This document shows, in pieces, positions 5,491 through 30,082 of a DNA stretch of 31,519 nt. Position numbers and translations under genes: made by a program. Source of the DNA: a virus; IMG/VR virus record IMGVR_UViG_3300036823_000176, positions 1 to 31,519 of that record; one strand, 5' to 3'. Within the stretch, counting starts at the first letter, position 1. Each line of letters starts with the position of its first letter. The notes beneath the pieces were generated by a model. That model saw only the letters and a program-made list of their open reading frames with translations. It made no database searches and had not been told where the DNA came from.

Positions 5491-5777
5491 CAGATTTCAC
5501 GTGAAACGTCTGCATTTATTGGGTCTGAAGTACGGTTCTCGACTTCGACTTTGACTACGACTGTCACCCGATGCAAAGGACAATAGGTTTTCGGGTGCCA
5601 TGGGTGATCGCCTGGTACCGAAATCAGACTCCAGCCATCAGGGACGGATGGTAGCCATGGAGCGCAGCCCGGTCCACCAAGCCGCGCTTCAAAATGCACC
5701 GCTCCGCACTCGAAACACTCCCACTTGTAGGCGATGCAGAACTTCCTGAAGCCGGTGTCTCCGGGGATAACATCCAT
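5490..5777 (-). CDS. Small cysteine-containing protein, possibly zinc-binding
   Basis: A 95-residue protein. I chose the ATG at 5775-5777 because it overlaps the previous stop as TGATG. A longer form from an ATG at 5810 is possible. It contains a CFECG pair (C-x2-C) early, a lone Cys in GPGCAPW and a YCPLH (C-x2-H) late, which together could bind one zinc. The product is otherwise unrecognised. It sits between two adaptor-like genes, so it may be carried in the structural transcript without being structural. Confidence 0.6.
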   Translation of the reverse strand: MDVIPGDTGFRKFCIAYKWECFECGAVHFEARLGGPGCAPWLPSVPDGWSLISVPGDHPWHPKTYCPLHRVTVVVKVEVENRTSDPINADVSREI

Positions 5778-6718
5778 CAATTCGCACCGCCCGGCGTCCC
5801 ACCGCGCCATCCGCCGGCCGCCGCGCCGCGCCCCATCCGGTGGCGGGTGAACCGGTTCGCCATCTTCACCGCGGTTTTCTTTCGGCGTTGCTGATGCTCC
5901 ACCCGCAGCAGGCGGGCGAGCTCGTCCTGGTAAAGCGCCTCGTAGCCCTTCGCCGCGGTGAAATCTTTCAGATGAAGCTGGATGTCGGCCCGCACGCCGT
6001 GTAGCAATACGGCGCTCGACAGGAACGGGAGCGGCGACCCGCTGGTGTTGGCCCCATCGAAGCCGATCGCCGCCCGCAGATACTCCAGCGCAAAGCCCCG
6101 CGCCCGCAGCGGAGGCGGATAGAACTCGATCTGATGCAGCACCGGGGGCGCGGTCTCCGGAGTGTCGTCATTGGCGTCCCAGGCTCGCGGATCTCCCACG
6201 AGTGTCCGTGGCCCCGCGCTGGCGTCCATGCCTTCCGCGGTGAACGAATTCATCGGCAAGCCGCTGATCGGATTCAGGACGGACACCACGCTCTGGCAGT
6301 CGGGCGGCAAGGTGTACAGGTTCGTCATCATGACGTAGGCGGCCTCGGCGTAGACAGTGCCGTCCGCATCCGTTCCGTTGCCTTCGTAAACGCGATCGAG
6401 CGTGAGCGAGGTACCACTCAAATAAGTGGCTGTGTAGATAACCGTGTCGCCCGGCCGGTAGAATCTCCGCCCGGTGATCCCGGACGTCCATGTGGTGCCG
6501 GCGCCGGTGACGGCGTTCGACCCGATCGTGAGAGTCACGGTGTCAGTTGTCGACTGGTAGGCGGCCGCTGTCTGGACCGAGGCGTGGGCTTTCAGGCCCT
6601 GCCAGTCCGTTGCCCCAAGGACCGCTTCGTAGCGCGTGTTCAGCCACTCATCGAGCAGATCGAGCGAGACGCCCGGCGCCGAGGTCTGGAGCTGAAGGCG
6701 AAGCTGGCCCCAAGTCAT
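5777..6718 (-). CDS. Head-to-tail adaptor protein (gp4/gp11-like)
   Basis: A 313-residue protein starting MTWGQLRLQLQTSAPG. The first 40 residues (VSLDLLDEWLNTRYEAVLGATDWQ) are typical of the P22 gp4-type and T7 gp11-type adaptor fold, with a helix that ends in a W-x-x-L turn. The middle is a beta-rich insert with a 'GSNAVTGAGTTW' strand and hairpin. The C-terminus has a helical hairpin (LLHGVRADIQLHLKDFTAAKGYEALYQDELARLL) and a basic tail. The ATG at 6716-6718 is 8 nt behind a YGTCGAAT motif and follows a 40-nt gap, so this may open a transcript. Confidence 0.7.
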   Translation of the reverse strand: MTWGQLRLQLQTSAPGVSLDLLDEWLNTRYEAVLGATDWQGLKAHASVQTAAAYQSTTDTVTLTIGSNAVTGAGTTWTSGITGRRFYRPGDTVIYTATYLSGTSLTLDRVYEGNGTDADGTVYAEAAYVMMTNLYTLPPDCQSVVSVLNPISGLPMNSFTAEGMDASAGPRTLVGDPRAWDANDDTPETAPPVLHQIEFYPPPLRARGFALEYLRAAIGFDGANTSGSPLPFLSSAVLLHGVRADIQLHLKDFTAAKGYEALYQDELARLLRVEHQQRRKKTAVKMANRFTRHRMGRGAAAGGWRGGTPGGAN

Positions 6719-6726
6719 GCAGGTTT

Positions 6727-6733
6727 ATTCGAC
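6727..6733 (-). promoter_or_regulatory. GTCGAAT start-proximal motif, copy 1
   Basis: CCCGTCGAAT on the minus strand ends 8 nt before the ATG at 6718. It lies in a 40-nt gap between genes. In the frame of the start codon it is followed by a TAA, so it is not there to encode protein. Role inferred as a promoter -10-like or initiation element. Confidence 0.5.
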
Positions 6734-7652: not shown

Positions 7653-8084
7653 CTATGTCAACCCCGCGCCGTTGATCATCCAGCGAGTACTCGTCATCTT
7701 GCAGGCGGTGGCAATGCCGTTGGCCGCCAGCGTTCGCGAGCCCGTTGTTCCGGCGCCGGCCAGCACAAGGGTGTCGCTCGTGATCGCGATGGTGAGGGTT
7801 CCCGCCGAGGCGTCGTTTACGAACGTCAGACAAGTGTTGATCGCGTACGCCACGTTCGCGTTCGAGTCGATCGTCCAGGTCCGCGCGCTGGTGTCGGCGG
7901 ATGGATGGTAAAGAAACGTGTTGGCGTCGCCGATGACCGTTGTGTATGCCGCGCTGATCGAGTGACTTGCGGGTGTAATCGACGCGACACAGATGCCGCC
8001 AGAGAGCGTGTAGCCCTGCGGGCATTGCTGGGCAAACGAAAGCGCGGCAAAAGCGATGAGCAGCGCGAACGCGCGGGAGATCAT
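7653..8084 (-). CDS. Predicted secreted protein of unknown function
   Basis: A 143-residue protein. The N-terminus (MISRAFALLIAFAALSFAQQ) is a good Sec signal peptide with likely cleavage after SFA. A short Cys loop follows (CPQGYTLSGGIC), then a Thr- and Ala-rich beta domain with two more Cys (NTCL, ATACKM). An even cysteine count in an exported domain suggests disulphides. The GTCGAAT motif lies 9 nt upstream of its start, and it is the first gene after a 28-nt gap, so it may start its own transcript with the next secreted gene. Confidence 0.65.
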   Translation of the reverse strand: MISRAFALLIAFAALSFAQQCPQGYTLSGGICVASITPASHSISAAYTTVIGDANTFLYHPSADTSARTWTIDSNANVAYAINTCLTFVNDASAGTLTIAITSDTLVLAGAGTTGSRTLAANGIATACKMTSTRWMINGAGLT

Positions 8085-8093
8085 GCCATCTGT

Positions 8094-8100
8094 ATTCGAC
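8094..8100 (-). promoter_or_regulatory. GTCGAAT start-proximal motif, copy 2
   Basis: CCCGTCGAAT on the minus strand, 9 nt before the ATG at 8084. It falls in the 28-nt gap after the 8113-8526 gene. It is the only copy in the set with a 9-nt spacing. Confidence 0.45.
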
Positions 8101-9156: not shown

Positions 9157-10077
9157 TTACGAGCTCGGCACGCCCGCGATGCCGTAGAAGCCGTTGTAGC
9201 CGACACTGAAGCGCATCCAGCCGGCCGTCTTCACCGATCGGGAATCAAAATCGATGTCGTGCACCGTGTTGAACGGTTCACGGTTGTAAAAGCGCAGCTC
9301 AGTGTCGCCTGTGTCCCCTTCGACGAACCAGGCGTCCGGATCGGTCAGGTAGTCCCAGACCATCCAGCTATCGAACGAAGGCAGGCCGCTGCGCCGCTTG
9401 AAAGCGTTGATCGCGCGGTTCGCGGTGTCGGGCCGGGTATCGCCGCCCAGCAATTCCGCCCCGATGAATTCGAGGTTCTGCGGGAAAATGGCCTTCTTCG
9501 GCGGGATGCGCAGCTTCTTGCCCCGGTGATCGACCGTCGACCGCATCAGGGTGAGAATCAGCTGCATGCTGGTGACGTCCGGATCGGTGGCGAATGACAG
9601 CCGGTTCGATTGCGTACCGCCGCCGATGAGCGGGTGGGCCGTCGAGAACAGCGAGACGCCGTCCGGTCCGGTGGCGGAGGTGAATCCCGTGTTGAACGGG
9701 TTCGCCGCTGTGACCTCTTTCGTCTCCTTGCCCGAGCGGCCGAGTTCTGTGGCGAGTTTCTTCACCACGCCGAACTTGTCGTCGTCCATCGCCACTTTCG
9801 TGACACGGAAGCCGAGCCCGTACTGCGCATGGACGTAAGTCTTGTTGAAGCCCGGCAGCGCTTCGTCGTACCGGGTGTCGCCGCCCTCGGGGATCACGGC
9901 CATCTGTCCGAAGCCGGTCACTTCCGTGGTCTGTTCGATCGAGCGGGCCGAGGACTCCATCCGGTAGACCTCGCTGAACTCGTCGGGAAACTGCGAGTAC
10001 TTCGTCATCACCACCTCGTCGATCGCCGGAAGCATCGACTGCAGGTAGAGATCCGGAAACAGTGTGCGAATGAACAT
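9157..10077 (-). CDS. Major capsid protein, HK97-fold
   Basis: A 306-residue protein starting MFIRTLFPDLYLQSMLPA. It carries a pattern typical of capsid proteins of the Mu gpT-like or related HK97-fold type: 'FPDEFSEVYRMESS', then an E-loop region (EGGDTRYDEALPGFNKTYVH), then 'LFSTAHPLIGG' and a C-terminal 'RFYNREPFNTVHDIDF'. An AGAGGA ribosome site lies just upstream of the ATG, consistent with strong expression. Gene order (scaffold, two minor proteins, capsid) is the usual one. It would assemble the icosahedral head. Confidence 0.85.
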   Translation of the reverse strand: MFIRTLFPDLYLQSMLPAIDEVVMTKYSQFPDEFSEVYRMESSARSIEQTTEVTGFGQMAVIPEGGDTRYDEALPGFNKTYVHAQYGLGFRVTKVAMDDDKFGVVKKLATELGRSGKETKEVTAANPFNTGFTSATGPDGVSLFSTAHPLIGGGTQSNRLSFATDPDVTSMQLILTLMRSTVDHRGKKLRIPPKKAIFPQNLEFIGAELLGGDTRPDTANRAINAFKRRSGLPSFDSWMVWDYLTDPDAWFVEGDTGDTELRFYNREPFNTVHDIDFDSRSVKTAGWMRFSVGYNGFYGIAGVPSS

Positions 10078-10677: not shown

Positions 10678-11634
10678 CTACAAGCTCCTGTCTGCTGTTT
10701 GCCTTTCGACTTTGAAGCCGGCGCTGCGTTCGCGGTTCAGGTACGAACCAGTGAGGGCCGCGTCTTCGAGGTCCCCTGCCGCATTCGACCGAACGTTCTC
10801 TCCCTGTCCAAGAACCGAAAAACCGCTTGCGCCGCCGTCGCGGATGGCCCGTGCGGCTGAATCTTCGAACTGTTCAGCAGCTTCGCGGACTTCCTGATCG
10901 GAGATTGCAGCGAAATGCCGCTGGCGGGCTTCAGCCATCCGGATCGGGATTTCACCCATGATGAGCGTGCCGACTTTCACCGGATCGCCCTTTTCGTCCT
11001 TCACCACGACGTAGCCGCGAAAGCCGAGGACACCGATACAGCGCTCGGATAAGAATTTGGGGGCCATGCCGGGCGTGCCGTACCGCATCACGGCTTCTTC
11101 CATCGGCTTGGCGAAGATCATGGCGTCCGAACGATCCGCCTCGACTTCGACGGTCCGCTCGGGGATTTTCAGAATGCGATCGCGAAAAGCAGCCGAGACC
11201 GACTCTTTGCCGAAGCGCGCGATCGCCGCGCGCAAGCCCTTCTGCATAATCGGATCCGGCACGGCCTTCTCCTCGAGCAGCAGAATCGTTTCGGCGGTCG
11301 TGTTCGCGTACTCCTGCAGGCCGATACGTTCGATCGTGGCCTTCATCTGCGGGCACGAGATCAGGAGTGGATCCGGGCCGTAGACGACGCGGGTGTAGGT
11401 GGGGATCGCATCGCCAAACGTCTTGCGGTCCCACTCTTCGGCAAGGAAGTCCACGACGTTGTCCGCCGTCGGTTCCGGATCTTTCAGATCAAGGCCGAGA
11501 TCGGTGGCCAGCGTCCGCACGGCCGACTGCGCATCGATGCGCGATTGCCGATCGGCGAGGATGCGTTTGTTCGCGTCCGTCGCGGGGTCAGTGGGGCGGG
11601 GAGGAGCGGGTCTGTTTCTGCGATTCGAACTCAT
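10678..11634 (-). CDS. Hypothetical protein in head block
   Basis: A 318-residue, largely helical and charged protein. The first ~25 residues are basic and proline-rich. The middle ('LISCPQMKATIERIGLQEYANTT', 'GLRAAIARFGKES') contains helices and two of the protein's three cysteines. The last third has a 'FRGYVVVKDEKGDPVK' beta hairpin and an acidic helix. It sits between scaffold and capsid-associated genes. No fold is recognised. A head-assembly or protease-like role is possible but no catalytic triad was found. Confidence 0.65.
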   Translation of the reverse strand: MSSNRRNRPAPPRPTDPATDANKRILADRQSRIDAQSAVRTLATDLGLDLKDPEPTADNVVDFLAEEWDRKTFGDAIPTYTRVVYGPDPLLISCPQMKATIERIGLQEYANTTAETILLLEEKAVPDPIMQKGLRAAIARFGKESVSAAFRDRILKIPERTVEVEADRSDAMIFAKPMEEAVMRYGTPGMAPKFLSERCIGVLGFRGYVVVKDEKGDPVKVGTLIMGEIPIRMAEARQRHFAAISDQEVREAAEQFEDSAARAIRDGGASGFSVLGQGENVRSNAAGDLEDAALTGSYLNRERSAGFKVERQTADRSL

Positions 11635-12398: not shown

Positions 12399-12761
12399 TC
12401 AGAGATTGATTTGAGTTCCGAACGGGGTACCGGCGTAGAGGTCAACGCGCTTCGACACATACGGCCGGATGCACGTTGCACAGAGCACCTGATAGATCCC
12501 ATCTTTCGGAACCACATAAAGCCGTACTTCGACGCCGGGAGTCGAATCGCGCAGAAACTCCCATGTGGCCAGACACGCCTGGCATCCTGGCATCGCCCCG
12601 CCGGCCAGAAACTCGATCGCCCTGGTATGCCAATCGAGACAGTAGTCACAAATCAGCTGCGCGTTCGCGCCGAGCCGATGGATCCGCCAGCTCTCCCGCT
12701 CCTTCGAGCAGTAGTGGCAGCGCAGCTTGACCACGTTCGGAACGTTGTGGACGGCGATCAT
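12399..12761 (-). CDS. Small zinc-binding protein with four CxxC pairs
   Basis: A 120-residue protein with four C-x2-C pairs: CHYC, CDYC, CQAC and CATC. This is enough to hold two zinc ions in a ribbon-type fold. The gene starts with an ATGA overlap with the upstream stop and ends 5 nt before the scaffold start. It may act as a DNA-, RNA- or protein-binding factor. The exact family is not recognised. Confidence 0.7.
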   Translation of the reverse strand: MIAVHNVPNVVKLRCHYCSKERESWRIHRLGANAQLICDYCLDWHTRAIEFLAGGAMPGCQACLATWEFLRDSTPGVEVRLYVVPKDGIYQVLCATCIRPYVSKRVDLYAGTPFGTQINL

Positions 12762-13357
12762 TGCACCAGGAGTACTTCGGTCCGCACGCTCGCGGCGAAC
12801 GTCCGCGCCACGACGAGGCCCGCGTGACAGGAATGCCCTGCCAGCTTCACGCCGGAGTTCTGCTGCAGAATGTCGGCCGACAGCGCCGCGATGTCGGCCG
12901 GAGAGTGAATTACCGGGAGAATCGCTCCGTAGATTTGTGGAGCGATCTGCAGCGCCGCGCCGATGACGGGGTCCAGGCGAAACGCCGCAGTGATGATCGC
13001 GGCGACGCTCGAAGCTGCTGTACCGGTCTTGAACAGTTTCGCGAACAGGTTGCGGTCCTGAAAAACCGCCAGGACCCGGGTAACCAGTTGGGAGTCGTAG
13101 AGCGTGAGCCCCTGGGTGGATCCGGAATTGATCCGCTGATACACCATGGCGAAATCGACCAGCTCGTCCGAATCGGTCTCGTTGCAGACCGTGGCGTCGA
13201 GCAGGCGCGTGCCGCCCAGCCTTGTTTCGGTCAGCAGGTTGAGCGGCGCCGCGCCCAGATCCGCGATCGTAACGGTGACGCGAGCGGCGGGAGGCTGCCC
13301 CCGGAGAACGTACGCCCCAAGCAGTAACCCGATCACGAAATAGGAAAAGTGGCTCAT
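12758..13357 (-). CDS. Membrane-anchored hypothetical protein
   Basis: A 199-residue protein. Residues 5-19 (SYFVIGLLLGAYVLR) form a single hydrophobic segment near a short N-terminus, so it could be an uncleaved anchor or a signal peptide with the bulk outside. The rest is a mixed helix-beta domain with two Cys (residues near 58 and 178). It overlaps both neighbours (ATGA). It may take part in entry, lysis or the host surface; no lytic enzyme motif is seen. Confidence 0.65.
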   Translation of the reverse strand: MSHFSYFVIGLLLGAYVLRGQPPAARVTVTIADLGAAPLNLLTETRLGGTRLLDATVCNETDSDELVDFAMVYQRINSGSTQGLTLYDSQLVTRVLAVFQDRNLFAKLFKTGTAASSVAAIITAAFRLDPVIGAALQIAPQIYGAILPVIHSPADIAALSADILQQNSGVKLAGHSCHAGLVVARTFAASVRTEVLLVQ

Positions 13358-13566
13358 TCGGCGGCGGGCGGGTCGGTCTTCCCAGCCTTCGCGGGCTTCG
13401 GTGCCGGCGTGGGCGGAAAACGCTTCAAGAGACTCGCCGCGTCGTCGCCTTCGAAAAGGAACGACTGGCCGCCCGAGTGGACCGTGGCCTGTCCTTCTTT
13501 TCGGAAGTCGATGAAGGAAATGCGGTCGAGGTTGATCGCGACGCCGTCGTGCGTGATGAAGTTCAT
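13354..13566 (-). CDS. Small acidic/basic hypothetical protein
   Basis: A 70-residue protein: an N-terminal beta hairpin pattern (NFITHDGVAINLDRISFIDF, HSGGQSFLFEGDDA) and a C-terminal Pro-, Lys- and Ala-rich tail. The start overlaps the stop of the previous gene by 4 nt, and a GTCGAAT motif lies 8 nt upstream inside that gene. The function is not recognised. Confidence 0.6.
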   Translation of the reverse strand: MNFITHDGVAINLDRISFIDFRKEGQATVHSGGQSFLFEGDDAASLLKRFPPTPAPKPAKAGKTDPPAAE

Positions 13567-13892
13567 ACAGTCCGATTCGACGGAACGCGCTCGGAAATGA
13601 AAGCCTTCATGTCCTCGCCCAGGTGTTCGATCTTGTTCTCAATTCCGCCGAACCGCTCTCGGGCTTCCTTGGCGAACATGTAACGGCCGTTGAGCTCCTG
13701 TTTCAACAGCTCGCTGATCTGCCGGTAATCCTGGACAGTCATGGCGCTGAGTCGTTCGCGCCGTTCGGGGCTGGTCTTGGGGTCGTCCCGATTGCGGAAG
13801 ATCACCGACTGCACGAATTGTTGGCCGATCCAGACTGCAGCTCCGCCGAGGATTGGCAGGCTCGCGTAGACCATCGGATCGGGTATATTCAT
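13563..13892 (-). CDS. Small membrane protein with coiled-coil, holin-like candidate
   Basis: A 109-residue protein. Residues ~9-27 (VYASLPILGGAAVWIGQQF) form one membrane-like segment. The rest is charged helix with a coiled-coil pattern (QISELLKQELNGRYMFAKEARERFGGIENKIEHLGEDM). The layout resembles one-TM holins or spanin-like proteins, but no lysis enzyme is visible nearby, so the role is uncertain. It starts 36 nt after the glycosyltransferase stop. Confidence 0.65.
   Translation of the reverse strand: MNIPDPMVYASLPILGGAAVWIGQQFVQSVIFRNRDDPKTSPERRERLSAMTVQDYRQISELLKQELNGRYMFAKEARERFGGIENKIEHLGEDMKAFISERVPSNRTV
13575..13581 (-). promoter_or_regulatory. GTCGAAT start-proximal motif, copy 3
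   Basis: CCGTCGAAT on the minus strand, 8 nt before the ATG at 13566. Unlike other copies it lies inside the end of the upstream reading frame (PSNRT), so it could be coding coincidence. Confidence 0.35.
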
Positions 13893-13928: not shown

Positions 13929-14957
13929 TTAAAAGCTGCGTTTTGCCAACCACTTGTTCCACTGCCTCACGCCATCGTCGTTGTGATCGGTCAGGGCAGC
14001 GACCCCGTCGGTGCCGGTGTGGCTGTCACTCAGCAGAGCCCGGCCCACGCGCCCGATGCTGTTCGTATCGTCCGGCGAGCACTTCCAGTGATCCGGAGCC
14101 CATTCGATGCAGTCGGAAACGACCGAGGGCACGCCTTCTGCCACACCGTCAGCGGTCACGACGTTGAAACTTTCCGTAAAGCTGGGCTGCAGCAGCAGAT
14201 GCATGTGCCGCACCGAGCGCCGGAAACCGGCCCACGGGGCCCACGGCGCTTTGACCACCCTCGCGTTCGGCAGATCGGCGAAGATCGCGTCGACGGACCT
14301 GACCAGCTTGTCCGCCCAGCCGCCATCGTTGCGGCCGACATTGATGTGGAACTCCAGATCCGTCCCCAGATTCGATGCGATCGCAAGCGCCGCAAAAGCG
14401 GATCCGGTCGGGTTCTTGAGCGGGCGCAGCGCGCCGAAGGCGCCGATCCGCAGGGTCCCTCCGGACCATTTCGGCCGCTGCTGCCGGACCGTGTCGTCGA
14501 GGAAGTACATGTTCGGCAGGTACGTGGCCGGACATTCCCAGGCGTCCTGCATTCCGCGGGCGCCGGATTTCGAGTTCGCGGCTACGGCGAAGTTACCGAC
14601 GCTCGATTGCTCGAGGTCGACCGCATCGCGCAGCAACTGGATCCCCTTGGGCTCAACTTGCAGGAATGCCATGTTCGAGTGCACCAGCACCACGAACGAG
14701 ATCTCGGATCGTCTGTGGACGAGGGCCGCCAGTTCCTGCGACCGCAGCCAAAGCGCGTTGATGACAACGTGGGTGGGCTGTTCGATCGCGATCTTGGCTT
14801 CGAGGTCCTGCAGGTCCCGGACGGGGCGCACGACAGTGTTCGTCCCATTGGCGCGCAGCACCTTGGCCGTATTCAGCGCCGAAACGCCGAGGCCTGTGTG
14901 CGACACCTGGGACCATCCGCCGTAGTTCAGCGGGCACAGCATAAGTTTCGTAATCAT
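13929..14957 (-). CDS. Family 4-like (GT-B) glycosyltransferase
   Basis: A 342-residue protein with a GT-B layout. Residues ~172-183 (GAFGALRPLKNP) match the nucleotide-binding loop of GT4 enzymes, with a Lys for the sugar-nucleotide phosphates. Residues ~258-279 (PSFTESFN...VPSVV) match the C-terminal GT4 signature. The second acidic residue of the usual E-x7-E pair is Asp (E262, D270). It is coupled to the upstream gene by ATGA. It lies among virion and membrane genes, so it might glycosylate a capsid or tail protein or a host surface glycan; the substrate cannot be read from sequence. Confidence 0.75.
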   Translation of the reverse strand: MITKLMLCPLNYGGWSQVSHTGLGVSALNTAKVLRANGTNTVVRPVRDLQDLEAKIAIEQPTHVVINALWLRSQELAALVHRRSEISFVVLVHSNMAFLQVEPKGIQLLRDAVDLEQSSVGNFAVAANSKSGARGMQDAWECPATYLPNMYFLDDTVRQQRPKWSGGTLRIGAFGALRPLKNPTGSAFAALAIASNLGTDLEFHINVGRNDGGWADKLVRSVDAIFADLPNARVVKAPWAPWAGFRRSVRHMHLLLQPSFTESFNVVTADGVAEGVPSVVSDCIEWAPDHWKCSPDDTNSIGRVGRALLSDSHTGTDGVAALTDHNDDGVRQWNKWLAKRSF

Positions 14958-15628: not shown

Positions 15629-15722
15629 GAGGTGTGATTCGACGGCGCGGAGCGCGCAGTACAACGTCGTTCCATTCGCGATCGGCAGCTTCCGCGTCGA
15701 TGAAATCGAAGTCGTCGAACAC
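15603..15722 (-). CDS. 39-residue acidic mini-gene candidate
   Basis: A reading frame of 39 codons from a GTG at 15720-15722, 8 nt behind a GTCGAAT motif. The first ~20 residues are strongly acidic (FDDFDFIDAEAADREWND), but from there the codons look less coding and the end overlaps the next gene by 26 nt. A +1 frameshift near codon 18 would join it to the better-looking frame of the next gene. It is either a real mini-gene or the 5' part of a frameshifted gene. Confidence 0.4.
   Translation of the reverse strand: MFDDFDFIDAEAADREWNDVVLRAPRRRITPHGKIHPQL
15637..15643 (-). promoter_or_regulatory. GTCGAAT start-proximal motif, copy 4
   Basis: GCCGTCGAAT on the minus strand, 8 nt before the ATG at 15628. 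Copy 5 lies about 94 nt upstream, making a tandem pair. Confidence 0.45.
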
Positions 15723-15730
15723 GCCGGATC

Positions 15731-15737
15731 ATTCGAC
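15731..15737 (-). promoter_or_regulatory. GTCGAAT start-proximal motif, copy 5
   Basis: CCCGTCGAAT on the minus strand, 8 nt before the GTG at 15722. In the start-codon frame it runs into TGA, so it is not coding there. Confidence 0.45.
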
Positions 15738-16263: not shown

Positions 16264-16482
16264 AGTCCATCGTTTCCCGAGTCTGACACGCACCGCTCGC
16301 CGCGGGCAAGCCGAAATATCGATCCCGATGCTTAACGCGAACCGGATCGCTTCATCGACCTCGGACTGAGGTACCGAGCCGCAGATACCCCGACCCGCCG
16401 CCGCGTCGAGCGCGAGCAGCCGAATGTAACTGAAGCGAGCGAGGAGAGACTCATTGCTCGTGCAGGACCTCGGGATGGCCAC
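16243..16482 (-). CDS. Small hypothetical protein downstream of portal
   Basis: A 79-residue protein whose start lies 32 nt inside the portal gene, in another frame. The middle (DEAIRFALSIGIDISACPRRAVRV) has a helix-strand pattern. The ATG is the only usable start in this frame near the portal stop. It is antisense to the end of the rightward 15916-16263 gene. No known family was recognised. Confidence 0.5.
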   Translation of the reverse strand: MAIPRSCTSNESLLARFSYIRLLALDAAAGRGICGSVPQSEVDEAIRFALSIGIDISACPRRAVRVRLGKRWTSLEPLP

Positions 16483-18742
16483 TGTAGATATTCGGCCCCG
16501 TGGCCGCGGGGTTGCCTTTCGGTTCGGTGGGGCCCCTGCCTTCAGCCCGTTTGCCGCTGAGGCTGTTACCGAACAGGGTTGTCGGGAAATTCACCACGCC
16601 GCCCGGCTGTCCCGGCTGCCCGGCGCCCATTTGCTGCCCGATGTGCGCGACGGCCTGCTCGATGACAGCCTGCTGCAGCTTCTTCTGCTGCAACTGCGCG
16701 ATGTGTTGCATGTAGTGAGTTTCCAGGGCCTTGACGGCCTGCGGGTCGCGCTCGGGGTCGGTGATCGACGCCTCATGATCCTTCCAGTGGCGGATCATGT
16801 GGACCTGATCGTTGTCCATCGGATTGACGTGGACTTCCTCGCCCTCTTCCATGCGCGCCCACTCTTCGCGCGGATCGATCGAGATGTCGGGCGCCGGCGG
16901 TTCGGGAACCAGGTCCGGGAAGTTCGGATCTCCCAACGCTTCGTGCGCATCCCGGGTAACCTGCCAGAGAGCGCGCGGGTTCTGCACGATCAGCGGGTTT
17001 TGCAGGTCGAGCTGATACCGCGCCAGCGCCTGCTCTTTTTTGACTTCTTTACTCCAAACGCTGCTCGCAAACTTCAGCCGGAAGTCGTAACGCCCGTCGC
17101 GGTCCGCCACCGAGATGGCCGAACCGCCGTTACTCGTTGGAAACAAACCATCGGCATCTTCCTCCGTCACACGGAAGAACATCTGCGGAGGCGTGAACAT
17201 GTACTCGAGCTGCCAGAAATGCTGCAGCACGCCCGACATGTCCTCCTGCAGCACCTTCGTATCGAGCGAGATCCGGACGTTGCCCTCCTCGAGCAGCTTG
17301 ACCGTCTGTGTAGCCGTCCGCGGCGCGTTCGGCCGATCCGACTGCCTGCCCAGCTGCAGATCGCTCAGACCTGTGAGCTTCTCGATGTAGGCGAGCACCG
17401 TTTGTTCTTTCCACGTGATCGCGTCCAGGTTGGCGGTGACCGTCAGTTCGCGAATGTCAGTCGCGGGATTGTCGAGCGGAATGAACAACCCGGGCTCGGC
17501 CTGGAACGTGTCGGCGTTCACGCCGGCAGCCGGCCGGTAGCCGAACATCGGCGTCGCGGCGAACTGGGCGGATTCAGTCCCCTGGTTGTGATTCACACGC
17601 AGCTCGTCTTCGAGGTTGATGATCATCTCGGCCATGCCGGGCGACCAGTACGTGCCGTCTTTGCACATGCTCGACTCGACGAACGGGCGGCGGTTCTTCA
17701 TCGTCGGGTAGAGCTCCTCGAGCGACTGCACGCCGATCACGATGTGGAGATCCCAGAGGTACCGGACCACGAAGTCCTTCTGGTACATTTCCCGCTTATC
17801 GAAATCCCACTCGCCAGCGTCCTTCTGCGAACCGCCGCCCTTCTTCCCGACGCCAGCTTTGAGCGGTCGCCACTTCCCGTACCATTCGAGAACTGTCACC
17901 CATTCGCCGGAGGACAGCGGCCGCTGGTAGAGAACACCTTCGGCGAGGTCCTTTTCGAGCTTGATTTCTTCGCCCTCTGACTGCCGTTGCGTGCCGTGCT
18001 GCGACAGGTTGAGGATGGTTTTCCAGTTCTTCGCGATGTTCTGGTACTTGCCCGCGCGCTCTCCACGCAGCAGATCGTCGGGGGTGACCCTGTAGCGCCG
18101 AATCACGAAGGAAAATTCGTGCAGCGTCTTCACCTCTTCCGCCGGCACGATGAAATCATCGGGCCAGAGCGGATCGAACCCCGGCCCGTCGTAGTCGACG
18201 ACTTCCTTGCCGGCCACTTCGAACGTGTCCCGCTTCCACGGCGAGTATGCGACAGACTTGCCAAAGATGAGCTTCCGGAGAACGAACTCGCAGAACGGGT
18301 TCAGCAGCTTCATGCTGTTGAACACCCGCCAGGTCATGTAACGCGAGATCTTCTTGTCCTTGCGGTAGTCGCTGGGCCCCACCGGAACGGCCGTGATCTC
18401 CGCGTCGTCGCCAAACAGCGCGTCCATTTCCTTCGCCCACTTCGTGAAGATGTTCCACTGGATCGCCGGAACCGGAACATTCGAAGCGGTTTCCTCGCCC
18501 ATCGCCTGCGGATCGACCGCGGCGCGCCAGCGCCGGTAGTACTCGCGCCAGCGTTTCATCCGAAGGTTGTGATCGGAGACGGCAGCCCGGTAATCGGTCT
18601 GGATCTTCGAGGCAAGCCGCGAGATCTCGGCGTCCGGCCACTTTAGCTGGAACTCGTGCTGCTGTTGCGTCTGAGGCGGTGGTGCGGTCTGTTGCGGCGG
18701 AGCTGCGGGAGCCGGTGGCTGCGGTGTCACTACCGCTTTCAT
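16451..18742 (-). CDS. Portal protein (P22 gp1-like)
   Basis: A 763-residue protein from the ATG at 18740-18742, with a Pro- and Gln-rich N-terminus. The long helical 'wing and stem' character, a 'RRWRAAVDPQAMGEE' segment, a strong 'WNIFTKWAKEMDALFGDD' region, a 'GPGFDPLWPDDFIVPAEEV' stretch and the Gln-rich C-terminal helix (barrel-like) fit P22-type portal proteins, which are long. It forms the dodecameric DNA gate at one head vertex. A GTCGAAT motif overlaps the ATG. An in-frame GTG at 18728-18730, 10 nt past the motif, could be the true start. Confidence 0.85.
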   Translation of the reverse strand: MKAVVTPQPPAPAAPPQQTAPPPQTQQQHEFQLKWPDAEISRLASKIQTDYRAAVSDHNLRMKRWREYYRRWRAAVDPQAMGEETASNVPVPAIQWNIFTKWAKEMDALFGDDAEITAVPVGPSDYRKDKKISRYMTWRVFNSMKLLNPFCEFVLRKLIFGKSVAYSPWKRDTFEVAGKEVVDYDGPGFDPLWPDDFIVPAEEVKTLHEFSFVIRRYRVTPDDLLRGERAGKYQNIAKNWKTILNLSQHGTQRQSEGEEIKLEKDLAEGVLYQRPLSSGEWVTVLEWYGKWRPLKAGVGKKGGGSQKDAGEWDFDKREMYQKDFVVRYLWDLHIVIGVQSLEELYPTMKNRRPFVESSMCKDGTYWSPGMAEMIINLEDELRVNHNQGTESAQFAATPMFGYRPAAGVNADTFQAEPGLFIPLDNPATDIRELTVTANLDAITWKEQTVLAYIEKLTGLSDLQLGRQSDRPNAPRTATQTVKLLEEGNVRISLDTKVLQEDMSGVLQHFWQLEYMFTPPQMFFRVTEEDADGLFPTSNGGSAISVADRDGRYDFRLKFASSVWSKEVKKEQALARYQLDLQNPLIVQNPRALWQVTRDAHEALGDPNFPDLVPEPPAPDISIDPREEWARMEEGEEVHVNPMDNDQVHMIRHWKDHEASITDPERDPQAVKALETHYMQHIAQLQQKKLQQAVIEQAVAHIGQQMGAGQPGQPGGVVNFPTTLFGNSLSGKRAEGRGPTEPKGNPAATGPNIYSGHPEVLHEQ

Positions 18743-18747
18743 TCGAC
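18741..18747 (-). promoter_or_regulatory. GTCGAAT motif, copy 6, overlapping the portal start
   Basis: GCCGTCGAATG: the motif shares its last bases with the ATG at 18742. If it acts like the other copies, the portal start would be the in-frame GTG at 18730, 10 nt downstream. Confidence 0.35.
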
Positions 18748-19274: not shown

Positions 19275-19667
19275 CTAGCCTTTGTCAGCGATCGGGACCG
19301 GCACGTAAGACCGGCTGCCGGTTCGCGTGCTGACCGCCAGCGCATCGACGTCCGGCGCCGCGAGGAAGTTGCCGAGCGCCTTCAACGTCACGCTGCAGCA
19401 TTCGAGGAAAGCGGCCGCACCCAGTTTCTTGCGCGCCTTCTGAATATCCACCTTGCGCTCGATCGAGCAAGACGAGATCCGGAGCGTGTAGCGTTCGCCC
19501 GTGACGACGAACTCGGCTTCAGGATCGCCGGCAGCCGCCAGTCCGGACAGTTCGTTGCGCAGCTTCTGATACAGGCGCTCGGTGGGCGCGAATGCGTCAC
19601 GGAGTTTCACAACGTCGCCGAAGTCGTCGACCGTCTTCGGCGGAACTACTACAAGTTTTGCTTCCAT
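19275..19667 (-). CDS. Hypothetical phage protein
   Basis: A 130-residue protein (starts MEAKLVVVPPKTVDDFGD). It has an N-terminal beta-helix pattern, a 'FVVTGERYTLRISSCSIERKVDI' strand pair and two Cys next to each other (FLECCSV). The GTCGAAT motif lies 8 nt upstream of the ATG. Its role is unknown. It sits between the plus-strand pair and a small basic protein. Confidence 0.65.
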   Translation of the reverse strand: MEAKLVVVPPKTVDDFGDVVKLRDAFAPTERLYQKLRNELSGLAAAGDPEAEFVVTGERYTLRISSCSIERKVDIQKARKKLGAAAFLECCSVTLKALGNFLAAPDVDALAVSTRTGSRSYVPVPIADKG

Positions 19668-19675
19668 CCAGACGG

Positions 19676-19682
19676 ATTCGAC
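19676..19682 (-). promoter_or_regulatory. GTCGAAT start-proximal motif, copy 7
   Basis: CTGTCGAAT on the minus strand, 8 nt before the ATG at 19667 in a 19-nt gap. It differs from most copies in having T rather than C before GTC. Confidence 0.45.
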
Positions 19683-19686
19683 AGCT

Positions 19687-19857
19687 TCAGTGTTTAAACG
19701 TCTTCGCGTTCTTCGCGAACTGCGCTTCCTTGCGGGTGGCTGCGGAGGCGCTGTTCAGCGCTGCCTGTAATTTGCCCGCGGGAATGCTCTCCCCCTGCGG
19801 AACGCCCAGCTTCTTATGGAGGAGTCCCTTGCGGGACGGTTTGATCTTGATCGCCAT
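19687..19857 (-). CDS. Small basic phage protein, MAIKIKP type
   Basis: A 56-residue basic protein (MAIKIKPSRKGLLHKKLG). Its opening matches a small protein family widespread in phages, whose typical start is MAIKIKPSHKGLLH. The C-terminus is helical and Lys- and Ala-rich (KLQAALNSASAATRKEAQFAKN). The frame is open further upstream (from a TTG), but the short form is chosen because of this family start and because a GTCGAAT motif lies 8 nt before it. Confidence 0.7.
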   Translation of the reverse strand: MAIKIKPSRKGLLHKKLGVPQGESIPAGKLQAALNSASAATRKEAQFAKNAKTFKH

Positions 19858-19865
19858 GGAAGGCG

Positions 19866-19872
19866 ATTCGAC
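19866..19872 (-). promoter_or_regulatory. GTCGAAT start-proximal motif, copy 8
   Basis: ATGTCGAAT on the minus strand, 8 nt before the ATG at 19857. A near-copy (CCGTCGAAC) lies about 22 nt further upstream at ~19891-19899. Confidence 0.45.
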
Positions 19873-21073: not shown

Positions 21074-21275
21074 GGAACCGCTCGGCCATCTCCATGACCT
21101 TTTCCCAGCTCACGAGGGCGATCCCGAAATCGGGGTGCGCTTCTGCGGCAGCAATCTCAATTCCCCTAGCCGAGAATGTGATCAGCGGCCCCTGCTTTGT
21201 CCTTTCGTAGCCGGCGGAGCCGGTCTCGACCGGGGTACGCCTCGGTCGATCCTCGCTGTCACCGTTGCCACTCAT
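21063..21275 (-). CDS. Small hypothetical protein downstream of terminase
   Basis: A 70-residue protein (starts MSGNGDSEDRPRR), acidic and Gly-rich at first, with a helix-strand pattern (PLITFSARGIEIAAAEAHP, ALVSWEKVMEMAERF). The ATG overlaps the terminase stop as ATGA, so it is co-translated with it. The role is unknown. Confidence 0.6.
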   Translation of the reverse strand: MSGNGDSEDRPRRTPVETGSAGYERTKQGPLITFSARGIEIAAAEAHPDFGIALVSWEKVMEMAERFRER

Positions 21276-23017
21276 CGAACCCTCACAGTTCCGCCGCGGC
21301 GGTCATCCCGCGCCGGCTGGCCATACTTTCGCACTTCCGGAGCCTTCAACAGCTCCCGCGCCACCGGCCGCGGCATCCGCATGATGACCACGATCGCCAG
21401 TGCCGTGGCGATGACCGTGTCGTCGTGGCACCCAGCCTGCGCCTCCGCGCGCCCGTTCGGTTTGATCACGAACGTCAGCAGCTCCTGTTGCGTGATCGGG
21501 TCGCGGATCGCGAGGGCCCCCTGCCGGATCGCCTCATCGAGATAACCGATCAGCAGCGGCCGGGACACCCCGGAAGTGTCCCAGCCGATGCGATCGCCCC
21601 TCACCTGCGGGTCCTGATCAGGTGTGACCGATCGGTGGTAGAGCAACGACGAGGGGTAATCCGCGTTCATCATGGCTTCGAGCATTGAGACTCCACCGCC
21701 GCCCGGGTTGCGCTCCCCGCAGCACTGAGCCATGTTGTACCACTGGCAGAACCGCGCCATGTACCGGCCGGTCTCCCCCGGCATCATGCGCGCGCGCAGG
21801 ACCGCGACCTGTTCGCCGGTGTCTCGATCGAGCATCGACCCGACGCTGTAATCCGGGTCCGATGTGCCATCCGCGGGGCCGACATCGAGACCCTGCGCGC
21901 AGTCGGCGCCGCAGGCGTAGAGCCTGCCTTTCTCCGGCCGCTTCCAGATCCGCACGGCGCCGCGATCGCCGGGCAGGAAGATCAGTTGCTTCTCGACGCC
22001 CACGGGATCGGCGACGAGCTCACCGCAAAGCGGATCGCGCTGTACGGGCATCCGCTGGAGGTGCGGCACGCTGAAGCGATTGCGAGAGGACGCGGTGAAC
22101 GCTTCCTCGGGCGTGGCGGGGTGCTCGCGCTGAAACCGGACGGTGTCGCCGGCGAAGTCGTTCTGGATGGTCCACCGGCGCCAGGCCAGCTGCTCGAGGT
22201 CGAGATTGAACTGGCCCTTGAGCTCCAACTCCTCGCGCGTGAGCGAGTTCATGAAGCGTTCGGCGGAGACCGCCGCCGGCATCCGGTTCGTGGGGTGTTC
22301 CCACCAGCCGAGGAAGAGACCGAGCCATTCCGTCTCGATCGAGGGATCGATCGCCTGTTGCCACATCTTGTGGAACGCGTCGCCGATGGTTTTGGCCGTG
22401 CCTTCGATTACTGCCGTGGTGTCGGGCAGCTTCGGGACCGCCGACATCACAGCGGCGAGGAGTTCCGCCGGCCGCGGATAGTAGGGGAACTCCGAAAAGT
22501 GGACGTTCGTCAAACGGAACGAACGCCCGAAGTTGGCGCTGCCCGCCGTCTTCACCTGGATGAAGGAGCTTTCGGGCTCGCCGCCGTATGCGTAATTGAT
22601 GCGCTCGCCGAGCACCTCCGACGGCGGCAGCCGGATCACGCCCGCGAACGGCCGGTAGCGATCGTGGAAGCGCTTGTAGATCGAGAAGATATTCTGCGTC
22701 GAGGTCTCGTCGTGCGCGATGACGGCCGTGTGGACGCCCGCCTGAAACGCCGTCCCGTGAAAGAACTGCGACGCCGTGCCGGTGGTCGCCTGGATGCGCC
22801 TACTCTTCAGGTATATGAGTCTGACGGGAACCCCTTTCGCGCGCTGCTTACGGATCGCTTCGTTCAGTCGGATCTGGCCGGGCCCGGGTTCCATCGGGAC
22901 AACGGCCTTCGCTTCCGTCTCGACCATCAGCGAGGATCGGCAGAACGAGGCGTGGTCGCGGAACTCGCGATAGATCAGGTCGAGGTCCGCGGCGCTTCGA
23001 TTCTCGACGCTGCTCAT
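21272..23017 (-). CDS. Terminase large subunit
   Basis: A 581-residue protein from the ATG at 23015-23017, chosen because it overlaps the previous stop as ATGA; a longer in-frame form exists. It has an atypical Walker A-like segment at residues ~70-79 (LKSRRIQATT), a Walker B-like segment near 168-176 (RLTNVHFSE) and a motif III-like segment (VIEGTAK, ~203-209). The C-terminal nuclease shows the acidic triad of RNase H-like terminases: D372 in CGADCAQG, E435 in GERNPGGGG and D532/D533 in GCHDDTV. It packages DNA through the portal. The order sigma, zinc protein, terminase is unusual; a clear small subunit is not seen. Confidence 0.85.
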   Translation of the reverse strand: MSSVENRSAADLDLIYREFRDHASFCRSSLMVETEAKAVVPMEPGPGQIRLNEAIRKQRAKGVPVRLIYLKSRRIQATTGTASQFFHGTAFQAGVHTAVIAHDETSTQNIFSIYKRFHDRYRPFAGVIRLPPSEVLGERINYAYGGEPESSFIQVKTAGSANFGRSFRLTNVHFSEFPYYPRPAELLAAVMSAVPKLPDTTAVIEGTAKTIGDAFHKMWQQAIDPSIETEWLGLFLGWWEHPTNRMPAAVSAERFMNSLTREELELKGQFNLDLEQLAWRRWTIQNDFAGDTVRFQREHPATPEEAFTASSRNRFSVPHLQRMPVQRDPLCGELVADPVGVEKQLIFLPGDRGAVRIWKRPEKGRLYACGADCAQGLDVGPADGTSDPDYSVGSMLDRDTGEQVAVLRARMMPGETGRYMARFCQWYNMAQCCGERNPGGGGVSMLEAMMNADYPSSLLYHRSVTPDQDPQVRGDRIGWDTSGVSRPLLIGYLDEAIRQGALAIRDPITQQELLTFVIKPNGRAEAQAGCHDDTVIATALAIVVIMRMPRPVARELLKAPEVRKYGQPARDDRRGGTVRVR

Positions 23018-23304
23018 GTGATGCGCACCAGTTCGATTCTTAGCGGGTCGATACTGACCAGCGTGACTTCCGCCGCGCACCGAAGGCAACGGTTGATGTT
23101 TAACTCGGGAGGACCGTCAAGAATCTTATGGTTGACGTACGACTCCTGCCCGCAGTGCGGGCATGCGATCAATGAGAAGCCGGGCCTATCGTTGCCTCTC
23201 CACGCCCGTCCTTCTTCCAGCGTGTAAGGGCACTTGTAGCTTCCCCAGTGCAGCCCACCGCAGTTCGCACACGGAGACTGCGATTCGTACTTCGTCTTCG
23301 TCAC
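23014..23304 (-). CDS. Zinc-ribbon-type small protein
   Basis: A 96-residue protein with three C-x2-C pairs: CANC, CPHC and CLRC. The second (ACPHCGQES) looks like a zinc ribbon. It starts from a GTG overlapping the sigma-factor stop (GTGA) and ends with an ATGA overlap with terminase. A zinc protein between sigma factor and terminase may be a nucleic-acid-binding partner of either. Confidence 0.65.
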   Translation of the reverse strand: MTKTKYESQSPCANCGGLHWGSYKCPYTLEEGRAWRGNDRPGFSLIACPHCGQESYVNHKILDGPPELNINRCLRCAAEVTLVSIDPLRIELVRIT

Positions 23305-23945
23305 GCCACCTCACCCCTGACCACCGCGCCGACCTGTTCCCGCGCCTCCGCAAGCTTCGCCCGCGTCCATGTCAGCGAGCGGCCCATTTGCTTCGCTGTC
23401 ACCGCCAGCGACTCGCCGTCGAGGTGGCCGCGCAGAACCCGCTGCTCCAGATCCGGAAGCCCCGCGATCGCATCGGTAAGCATACGGTGTATCTCCTCGC
23501 GCTCGGCGATCTCATCGGCGAGCGGCGCCGGATCCGTATCGAGCGCCGGCGGCAGCCAGCCATCGTGGGCTTCAGCCATGCCCTGCAGGGATACGTTGCT
23601 TTCCTCTCGATACACCCGCCGCTTTTGTGAATCGATGATAGCCCCGCGAACGCGGAACCAGGCGTATGGTTCGAAAGCGCCCTTCGCCGGGTGATATGAG
23701 TTCGCCGCGTGCACCAGACCTACAGACCCAGCCTGGGTCAGGTCGCGAAAATCCAGGTAAGGGGCAAACATCCACTTCACGTTACGCGCAATTCGATCGA
23801 CCATCGGGAGCAGATCGATCACCTGGTTTTCACGCTGCCACCGCCGCCAGGCTCCCAACCGCCCCGCATTCGATAGCTCGTTTCGCCTAAGCTCTTGATT
23901 CCGTTCACGCGCCTGGCAGATGTATGAGTCCCACAACTTATTCAT
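23301..23945 (-). CDS. Phage-encoded sigma-70-family RNA polymerase sigma factor
   Basis: A 214-residue protein from the ATG at 23943-23945, which overlaps the end of the previous gene by 8 nt. Region 2 is at residues ~42-109 (LLPMVDRIARNV, YLDFRDLTQAGSVGLVHAA, FEPYAWFRVRGAIID), with the DLTQAGSVGL core helix that contacts core RNA polymerase and the Y-A-W-F-R-V-R-G-A segment for the -10. Region 4 is at ~158-205 (AIAGLPDLEQRVL, QMGRSLTWTRAKLAEA), with a helix-turn-helix for the -35. Region 3 is short (~110-157). The layout suits a FliA-like or group 3/4 sigma factor. It would redirect host RNA polymerase to phage promoters; it lies just upstream of the terminase. Confidence 0.8.
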   Translation of the reverse strand: MNKLWDSYICQARERNQELRRNELSNAGRLGAWRRWQRENQVIDLLPMVDRIARNVKWMFAPYLDFRDLTQAGSVGLVHAANSYHPAKGAFEPYAWFRVRGAIIDSQKRRVYREESNVSLQGMAEAHDGWLPPALDTDPAPLADEIAEREEIHRMLTDAIAGLPDLEQRVLRGHLDGESLAVTAKQMGRSLTWTRAKLAEAREQVGAVVRGEVA

Positions 23946-24294
23946 CAGCGGCAGGGACGCGCCTCCGGTGGATCTGAATGAACTCGTCCCAGAGCACCTG
24001 CCCGTTGTCAGGCGCCGTCTCTTCGATCTTGCGGACAGCCACGACGCCGGCACGATTGAGCAGCTCGCGGATCGCAGTCAGCGAATGCTGTGGCTCGACA
24101 TGCTTGTCCTTCCCCTTGGCCAGCGCGATCGAGACCAGCCGCGCCGCAGCGGGATCCGCCGCCATCAGAATTCTACGGAGAGCGGCGGCGATCACCTGAG
24201 GCGCGGATCCGCCGTGGACGCGGCAGACAGTTCCTCCGGCGATCGCATGCGCTTTGCAGGGTTTCTTCTTACTGGTCTTACCCTTACACAGCAA
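23938..24294 (-). CDS. HGG-motif, Cys-rich small protein; small-terminase candidate
   Basis: A 118-residue protein with a TTG start and a GGAGG ribosome site 7 nt before it. The N-terminus has Cys-rich elements (LLCKGKTSKKKPCKAH, AGGTVCRVHGG) of the type 'C-x..C-x..C-R-x-H-G-G' found in small phage proteins that are sometimes annotated near the terminase. The rest is helical (LTAIRELLNRAGVVAVRKIEE). It overlaps the sigma-factor start by 8 nt and opens that operon. It might be a small terminase subunit or a regulator; this is inference. Confidence 0.55.
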   Translation of the reverse strand: MLCKGKTSKKKPCKAHAIAGGTVCRVHGGSAPQVIAAALRRILMAADPAAARLVSIALAKGKDKHVEPQHSLTAIRELLNRAGVVAVRKIEETAPDNGQVLWDEFIQIHRRRVPAADE

Positions 24295-24373
24295 TGCAGG
24301 CCCTCCCGCGTTGATCTGACACCGCGCACCTACGGCCTTTCATGGGTCGAGGGGTTTGATGGGTCTGGACCAA

Positions 24374-24392
24374 GTGTCGGATTATTCGACAC
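24374..24392. promoter_or_regulatory. Inverted repeat with GTCGAAT, upstream of sigma operon
   Basis: An inverted repeat with 6-bp arms (GTGTCG / CGACAC) and a 7-nt loop. Its right side contains the ninth GTCGAAT motif (minus strand, 24384-24390). It lies ~90 nt upstream of the TTG start of the HGG gene, in the 143-nt gap that heads the sigma-factor operon. A TTGCCC sits 16 nt upstream of the TCGAAT, as a possible -35. Role inferred as promoter/operator. Confidence 0.4.
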
Positions 24393-24437
24393 GTTCGGCA
24401 ACTTCGGGCAACCCGGGGGGAGGGTGGCTATAGTACT

Positions 24438-29813: not shown

Positions 29814-30082
29814 GCCGCCGTTCCCCCTTCGCCCGGCGCCGGCGTTTCGATTCGACCCGTGCGCCGCGCCCAGCTGCCCAGCGCATCGAGAAGCAGCGAG
29901 TACCGCAGGTGTTCCTGTGGCAGCTCTTCGTAGATCCAGCAGCGCAGATCACCCGCCGTGATGCCAAGCTCCTCCGCGCGGTTGATCAGCAGATCCGGCA
30001 GCGGATCGTCCGCCGGCAGCACGCACCCGGTTGCCTCCGCGATCGAGCCGTGCACATGGCCGCGGTCCCAGTCGGCCGCCAT
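29810..30082 (-). CDS. Small hypothetical protein
   Basis: A 90-residue protein (starts MAADWDRGHVHGSIAEA). It has an acidic helical centre (RAEELGITAGDLRCWIYEELPQ), one further Cys near the start and a basic, Pro-rich tail. It is coupled to the 60-residue gene by TAATG. Not recognised. Confidence 0.6.
   Translation of the reverse strand: MAADWDRGHVHGSIAEATGCVLPADDPLPDLLINRAEELGITAGDLRCWIYEELPQEHLRYSLLLDALGSWARRTGRIETPAPGEGGTAA

Follow-up and report, generated by a model that had tools for sequence, protein, structure and literature searches.

In phage T4, late genes are served by promoters that consist of one 8-bp -10 box (TATAAATA) with no -35 and are read by the phage sigma gp55, which works with gp33 and the sliding clamp. 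Sigma region 4 usually reads the -35. In FliA/sigma-28, residues D81 and R84 are said to read the CG of GCCGATAA, a finding attributed to Koo and colleagues from 2009. This sequence is the consensus -10 of sigma-28 (PMC2859248), and it follows the -35 in promoters of the form TAAAGTTT-n11-GCCGATAA. In phages phiEco32 and 7-11, a phage sigma uses tAATGTAtA promoters at middle and late genes and has further boxes ahead of its own gene, and phiEco32-like phages are a precedent for a sigma self-activation loop (PMC4331800). The promoters of phage sigmas can usually not be inferred from homology (PMC4331800). The middle/late promoters of Thermus phage P23-45 are -35-independent and use host sigma-A (PMC7403470), and leaderless messages are a recognised class that is frequent among phage transcripts (PMC5312081).

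The window, the whole stretch of DNA analysed here, corresponds to a single IMG/VR virus record (31,519 bases, GC 63%), and its genes are almost all encoded on the minus strand. It carries the large terminase subunit (21272-23017, minus strand), the portal (16451-18730, minus strand), a capsid gene (9157-10077) and an SU10-type adaptor (5777-6718, minus strand). Searches with the window capsid and terminase gathered about 110 loci of this uncultured phage family. Its hosts are likely soil bacteria of the Acidobacteriota (Bryobacterales), since three of the four capsid relatives from cellular genome collections sit in Bryobacterales bins. One of these host bins, G002, also holds a second phage of the family (L241; terminase 60% and sigma 54% identical), and a capsid 83% identical was found in a bin labelled Streptosporangiaceae, on what is probably a mis-binned phage contig (L115).

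Adjoining the terminase, in the window as in relatives, is the gene for a phage sigma factor of 214 aa from its ATG (23301-23945, minus strand). The preliminary description had recognised a sigma-70-family protein with regions 2 and 4, and the gene is real by its Pfam and NCBIfam matches: Sigma70_r2 is found at 5e-11, above cut-off, the NCBIfam sigma70-ECF superfamily model also scores above cut-off, and Sigma70_r4_2 matches at 1e-3, below its cut-off. Region 2 spans about residues 45-112 and is FliA-like, region 4 spans about residues 154-204, and no domain match for region 3 was found between them. The AlphaFold2 model (pLDDT 84.5, pTM 0.45) has two domains joined by a loose linker, with a low-confidence stretch at about 111-140, and the top-ranked known structures in a comparison with this model were sigma factors. 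A PDB profile search places FliA (sigma-28) first (E 1e-22), mainly via region 2. The protein nevertheless lies outside the FliA/sigma-28 group (group 3), both on the FliA_WhiG subfamily score (56.4 bits, from region 2 only, vs a cut-off of 189.6) and on the missing region 3. Among isolated phages, no match to the sigma exceeded about 31% identity across 36% of its length.

The FliA likeness is closest in region 2.4, whose box-reading segment, RVRGAIID105SQK108RR, is of the RxRGAxxDxx(K/R) type. Among 49 sigma-bearing contigs, D occupies position 105 in all but three, and residue 108 is K or R in all but two (N). We take these residues to be the counterparts of FliA D81 and R84, from an alignment to FliA made by hand. 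The boxes described below, GTCGAATA and GGCGAATA, would suit a reader with a FliA-like region 2.4, and G-x-C-G-A is common to the phage and FliA boxes.

GTCGAAT occurs 12 times in the window against 6.2 expected, a count reached by 1 of 100 shuffles, and 11 of the copies are on the minus (coding) strand. Eight of these 11 end 8-10 nt ahead of an ATG or GTG (binomial p = 2e-7), with spacings of 8 nt in six cases and of 9 and 10 nt in one each; for an exact 8 nt followed by ATG, p = 1e-7. None of the eight genes has a Shine-Dalgarno sequence, which many other window genes possess. These putative promoter boxes, all on the minus strand, lie 8 nt before ATG at 19866-19872 (ATG 19857, gene 19687-19857), 19676-19682 (ATG 19667, gene 19275-19667), 15637-15643 (ATG 15628, MAKSTPSF...), 13575-13581 (ATG 13566, gene 13354-13566) and 6727-6733 (ATG 6718, the adaptor); 8 nt before GTG at 15731-15737 (GTG 15722, a small gene of about 39 aa); 9 nt before ATG at 8094-8100 (ATG 8084, gene 7653-8084); and 10 nt before GTG at 18741-18747 (GTG 18730, the portal). 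The portal start is probably this GTG (VTPQPP...) rather than the box-overlapping ATG at 18742, and the relatives L005, L008 and L011 agree. Three minus-strand copies are not at a start codon: one within a coding region (10783-10789, probably chance), one (29850-29856) separated from ATG 29813 by 36 nt that include a Shine-Dalgarno, and one ahead of the sigma operon (24384-24390), discussed below. The sole plus-strand copy, at 12541-12547, is probably also chance.

The same arrangement is found across the family. In pooled related IMG/VR contigs, GTCGAAT stands exactly 8 nt before ATG 58 times vs 1.9 expected, an enrichment that no other 7-mer reaches at that distance, and there are 165 coding-strand copies vs 41 on the other strand. 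In the phages with the GTCGAAT form of the box (GT-type), GTCGAATA is the top over-represented coding-strand 8-mer (34 vs 3.9 expected), with 6 copies on the other strand. In a logo of 77 sites the box is followed by an A (66%) and a run rich in C, with G at position 13 and a pyrimidine just ahead of the start codon; nothing is conserved in the 60 bases upstream of the box. The preliminary description had observed that GTCGAAT shares four of six bases with the usual -10 (literally correct for TCGAAT vs TATAAT) and that no consistent -35 accompanies its copies, and 207 sites bear out the latter. No 4-mer was enriched at any fixed offset, TAAAGT of the sigma-28 type was not above control at spacers of 15-19, and TAAAGTTT with an 11-bp spacer is absent at the phage boxes. 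The TTGCCC upstream of the sigma-operon copy was rejected as a -35 for want of upstream information in the 77 sites and of an enriched 4-mer in the 207.

The box and the sigma gene also occur together. Of the 18 large relatives, 17 carry the sigma gene, and the remaining contig, G019, is a fragment that lacks the terminase end, which the sigma gene normally adjoins, so the absence of the gene there refutes nothing and we rejected it as a counterexample. The comparison of motif and sigma presence that the preliminary description had suggested came out in favour of a link: four capsid/terminase relatives without a sigma gene have no start-linked GTCGAAT, which is weak support since all four are only distantly related and belong to other hosts.

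Two box types are found among the genomes, with T or G at box position 2, and the type varies with the sigma clade. Scored over 49 sigma-bearing contigs, phages with K108 have 83 start-linked sites, of which 74 carry T at base 2 and 6 carry G; of the 35 such sites in phages with R108, 6 carry T and 16 carry G. An example is the adaptor gene, whose box is GTCGAAT in the window and in G006, G011, G013 and G020 (all K108), and GGCGAAT at the same site in G009, G014 and G017 (all R108). In L241 (K108), found later in the host bin, GTCGAAT sites precede start codons by 9 and 8 nt. There are exceptions: L193 (K) has two T and two G sites, and the R phages G014 and L095 show a mixture or T. Because two K/R changes suffice to explain the sigma tree, the covariation is large in count but weak in independent events, and an independent-pairs test of K/R vs T/G yields 2 pairs only, of which one agrees and one does not differ.

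We think it likely that these boxes are phage-specific late promoters read by the phage sigma. In the proposed mechanism, the sigma operon would be transcribed early in infection from host-type promoters, and the FliA-like, region-3-less sigma would then bring the host core RNA polymerase to GTCGAATA, the sole recognition box (a -10 element with no -35), and activate the downstream portal-to-tail late module. At most genes transcription would start 0-2 nt ahead of the start codon, at the G six bases after TCGAAT that is followed by a pyrimidine and AUG, so that most messages would have no leader or hardly any; a few copies would drive leadered messages with a Shine-Dalgarno sequence. For the reader itself, the idea put forward in the preliminary description very probably holds: the synteny of the sigma gene, the FliA-like region 2.4, the link of box variant to sigma clade and the sigma-less relatives without the motif all point to the phage sigma. 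That description included neither the start-codon-locked box with its predicted leaderless or near-leaderless mRNAs, nor the likeness to FliA, nor the GT/GG variants. A wider claim, that the whole family has one-box, -35-less, leaderless late promoters, a minimal FliA-like sigma and a box base 2 that co-evolved with residue 108, we make only tentatively and hold at somewhat less than even.

Of the described systems, T4 late transcription shares with this family a phage sigma, a single -10 box with no -35 and late genes as targets. It differs in that the box here is unlike TATAAATA, gp55 lacks region 4 whereas the window sigma has it, and sliding-clamp co-activation characterises T4 whereas start-codon locking characterises the window family. 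From FliA promoters the phage box (GTCGAATA) differs by one more A and the lack of a -35. With phiEco32 and 7-11 the family shares a phage-encoded sigma and a short phage-specific box; the box is another one, and the sigma-operon copy is not conserved. P23-45 likewise has -35-independent promoters, but they are used by host sigma-A, in contrast to a phage sigma in the window family.

Against the proposed mechanism stand the few independent K/R changes, the exceptions L193, G014 and L095, the FliA of the host bins, and the fact that region 4 is kept in the sigma, yet no -35 was found. The kept region 4 and the missing -35 favour a refinement in which the sigma needs a phage co-activator that replaces the missing -35 contact, as for T4 gp55; we consider this addition to the mechanism rather unlikely. 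Less probable still is that the boxes are late promoters read by a host FliA-like sigma, the phage sigma having some other or accessory role. The phage box is similar to the FliA -10, and full-length FliA is found above cut-off in all three Bryobacterales bins holding a relative; because host bins carry FliA, a host reader retains some likelihood. However, the box differs from GCCGATAA, the sigma-28 -35 is not enriched, box variants track the phage sigma clades, and nearly every relative keeps its sigma gene. Four host bins give few GTCGAAT-N8-ATG matches, and these are without the phage-type bases after the box; GTCGAAT as a host-wide signal was rejected on this ground. Separately, we noted in the Bryobacteraceae bin G002, beside full-length FliA, about seven extra FliA-like sigma genes (L234-L240) of 234-293 aa, seemingly without region 3 (RIRGAMLDFLR...).

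Could GTCGAAT be a translation-initiation signal that replaces the Shine-Dalgarno? The fixed 8-nt gap to ATG or GTG and the lack of a Shine-Dalgarno at such genes are what this reading would predict, but GTCGAAT has no complementarity to the anti-Shine-Dalgarno, and two further observations speak against it. In the sister phages G007, G009, G017 and G019, GGCGAATAACC is found about 27 nt upstream of the start with a GGGGG Shine-Dalgarno in between. Further, G at box position 13 has frequencies of 61, 51, 61 and 58% at spacings of 8, 9, 10 and 11 nt, vs a background of 32% (p = 3e-4 for pooled spacings 9-11, one per N-terminus). As its frequency stays at a similar level at spacings 8-11, the G goes with the box rather than with the start codon, and it looks like an initiating-nucleotide signature. 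Given the leadered copies and the box-locked G, the GTCGAAT-type box is best read as a promoter and not a ribosome-binding site, and we rejected the translation signal as very improbable. Judged from sequence alone, the spacing and the G13/Y14 pattern match a leader of 0-2 nt: with TCGAAT taken as -12 to -7, position 13 would be +1 and the leader 2 nt, and a start at the A of ATG is possible as well. That the box is an operator for another phage DNA-binding protein and not read by a sigma is the least probable reading of all: the 24384 copy sits in a perfect inverted repeat (GTGTCG-7-CGACAC), but the remaining copies are not palindromic, and strand, fixed start distance and box-locked G suit a promoter.

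The preferred reading of the boxes as promoters for the phage sigma raises the matter of the sigma operon itself. The gene ahead of sigma (23938-24294, minus strand) overlaps its start, begins with TTG behind the Shine-Dalgarno GGAGG, and is probably small-terminase-like, from its position and an HGG motif. The minus-strand GTCGAAT(AAT) at 24384-24390 lies about 90 nt ahead of this first gene of the operon and is a possible leadered promoter. The preliminary description had placed this copy, with TTGCCC 16 nt before TCGAAT, in the 143-nt gap heading the operon, which is as we find it (the gap is bounded by 24294 and 24438), and had suggested a positive loop in which sigma switches on its own operon. 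As a general feature the loop did not stand up. An exact box is found ahead of the sigma operon in 3 of 28 comparable contigs, matches to at least 7 of the 8 box bases number 5 where control stretches predict 5.7, and in the nearest relative (sigma 77% identical) there is no box copy ahead of the operon; relatives thus do not conserve a promoter of this type ahead of the sigma gene. L065 has a copy at the matching place. Self-activation may hold for the window phage and is not a family trait. The inverted repeat around the copy (24378-24396, GTGTCG-GATTATT-CGACAC) is a possible operator or hairpin; at the aligned place G005, which is the nearest relative, carries another repeat, GTGTG...CACAC, and this one is imperfect.

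From the genomes of uncultured Acidobacteriota phages alone, a box, a start-site signature, a probable reader and a natural variant pair (T/G with K/R) can be named, so that one can test directly which promoters a FliA-like sigma lacking region 3 recognises. The suggested late regulon would have promoter and start codon fused, so that no leader or ribosome-binding site would be needed, and the box gives better start codons for family genes such as the portal. Between structural genes of the late module there is also a glycosyltransferase-like gene (13929-14957), with a weak GT4-conflict match below cut-off.
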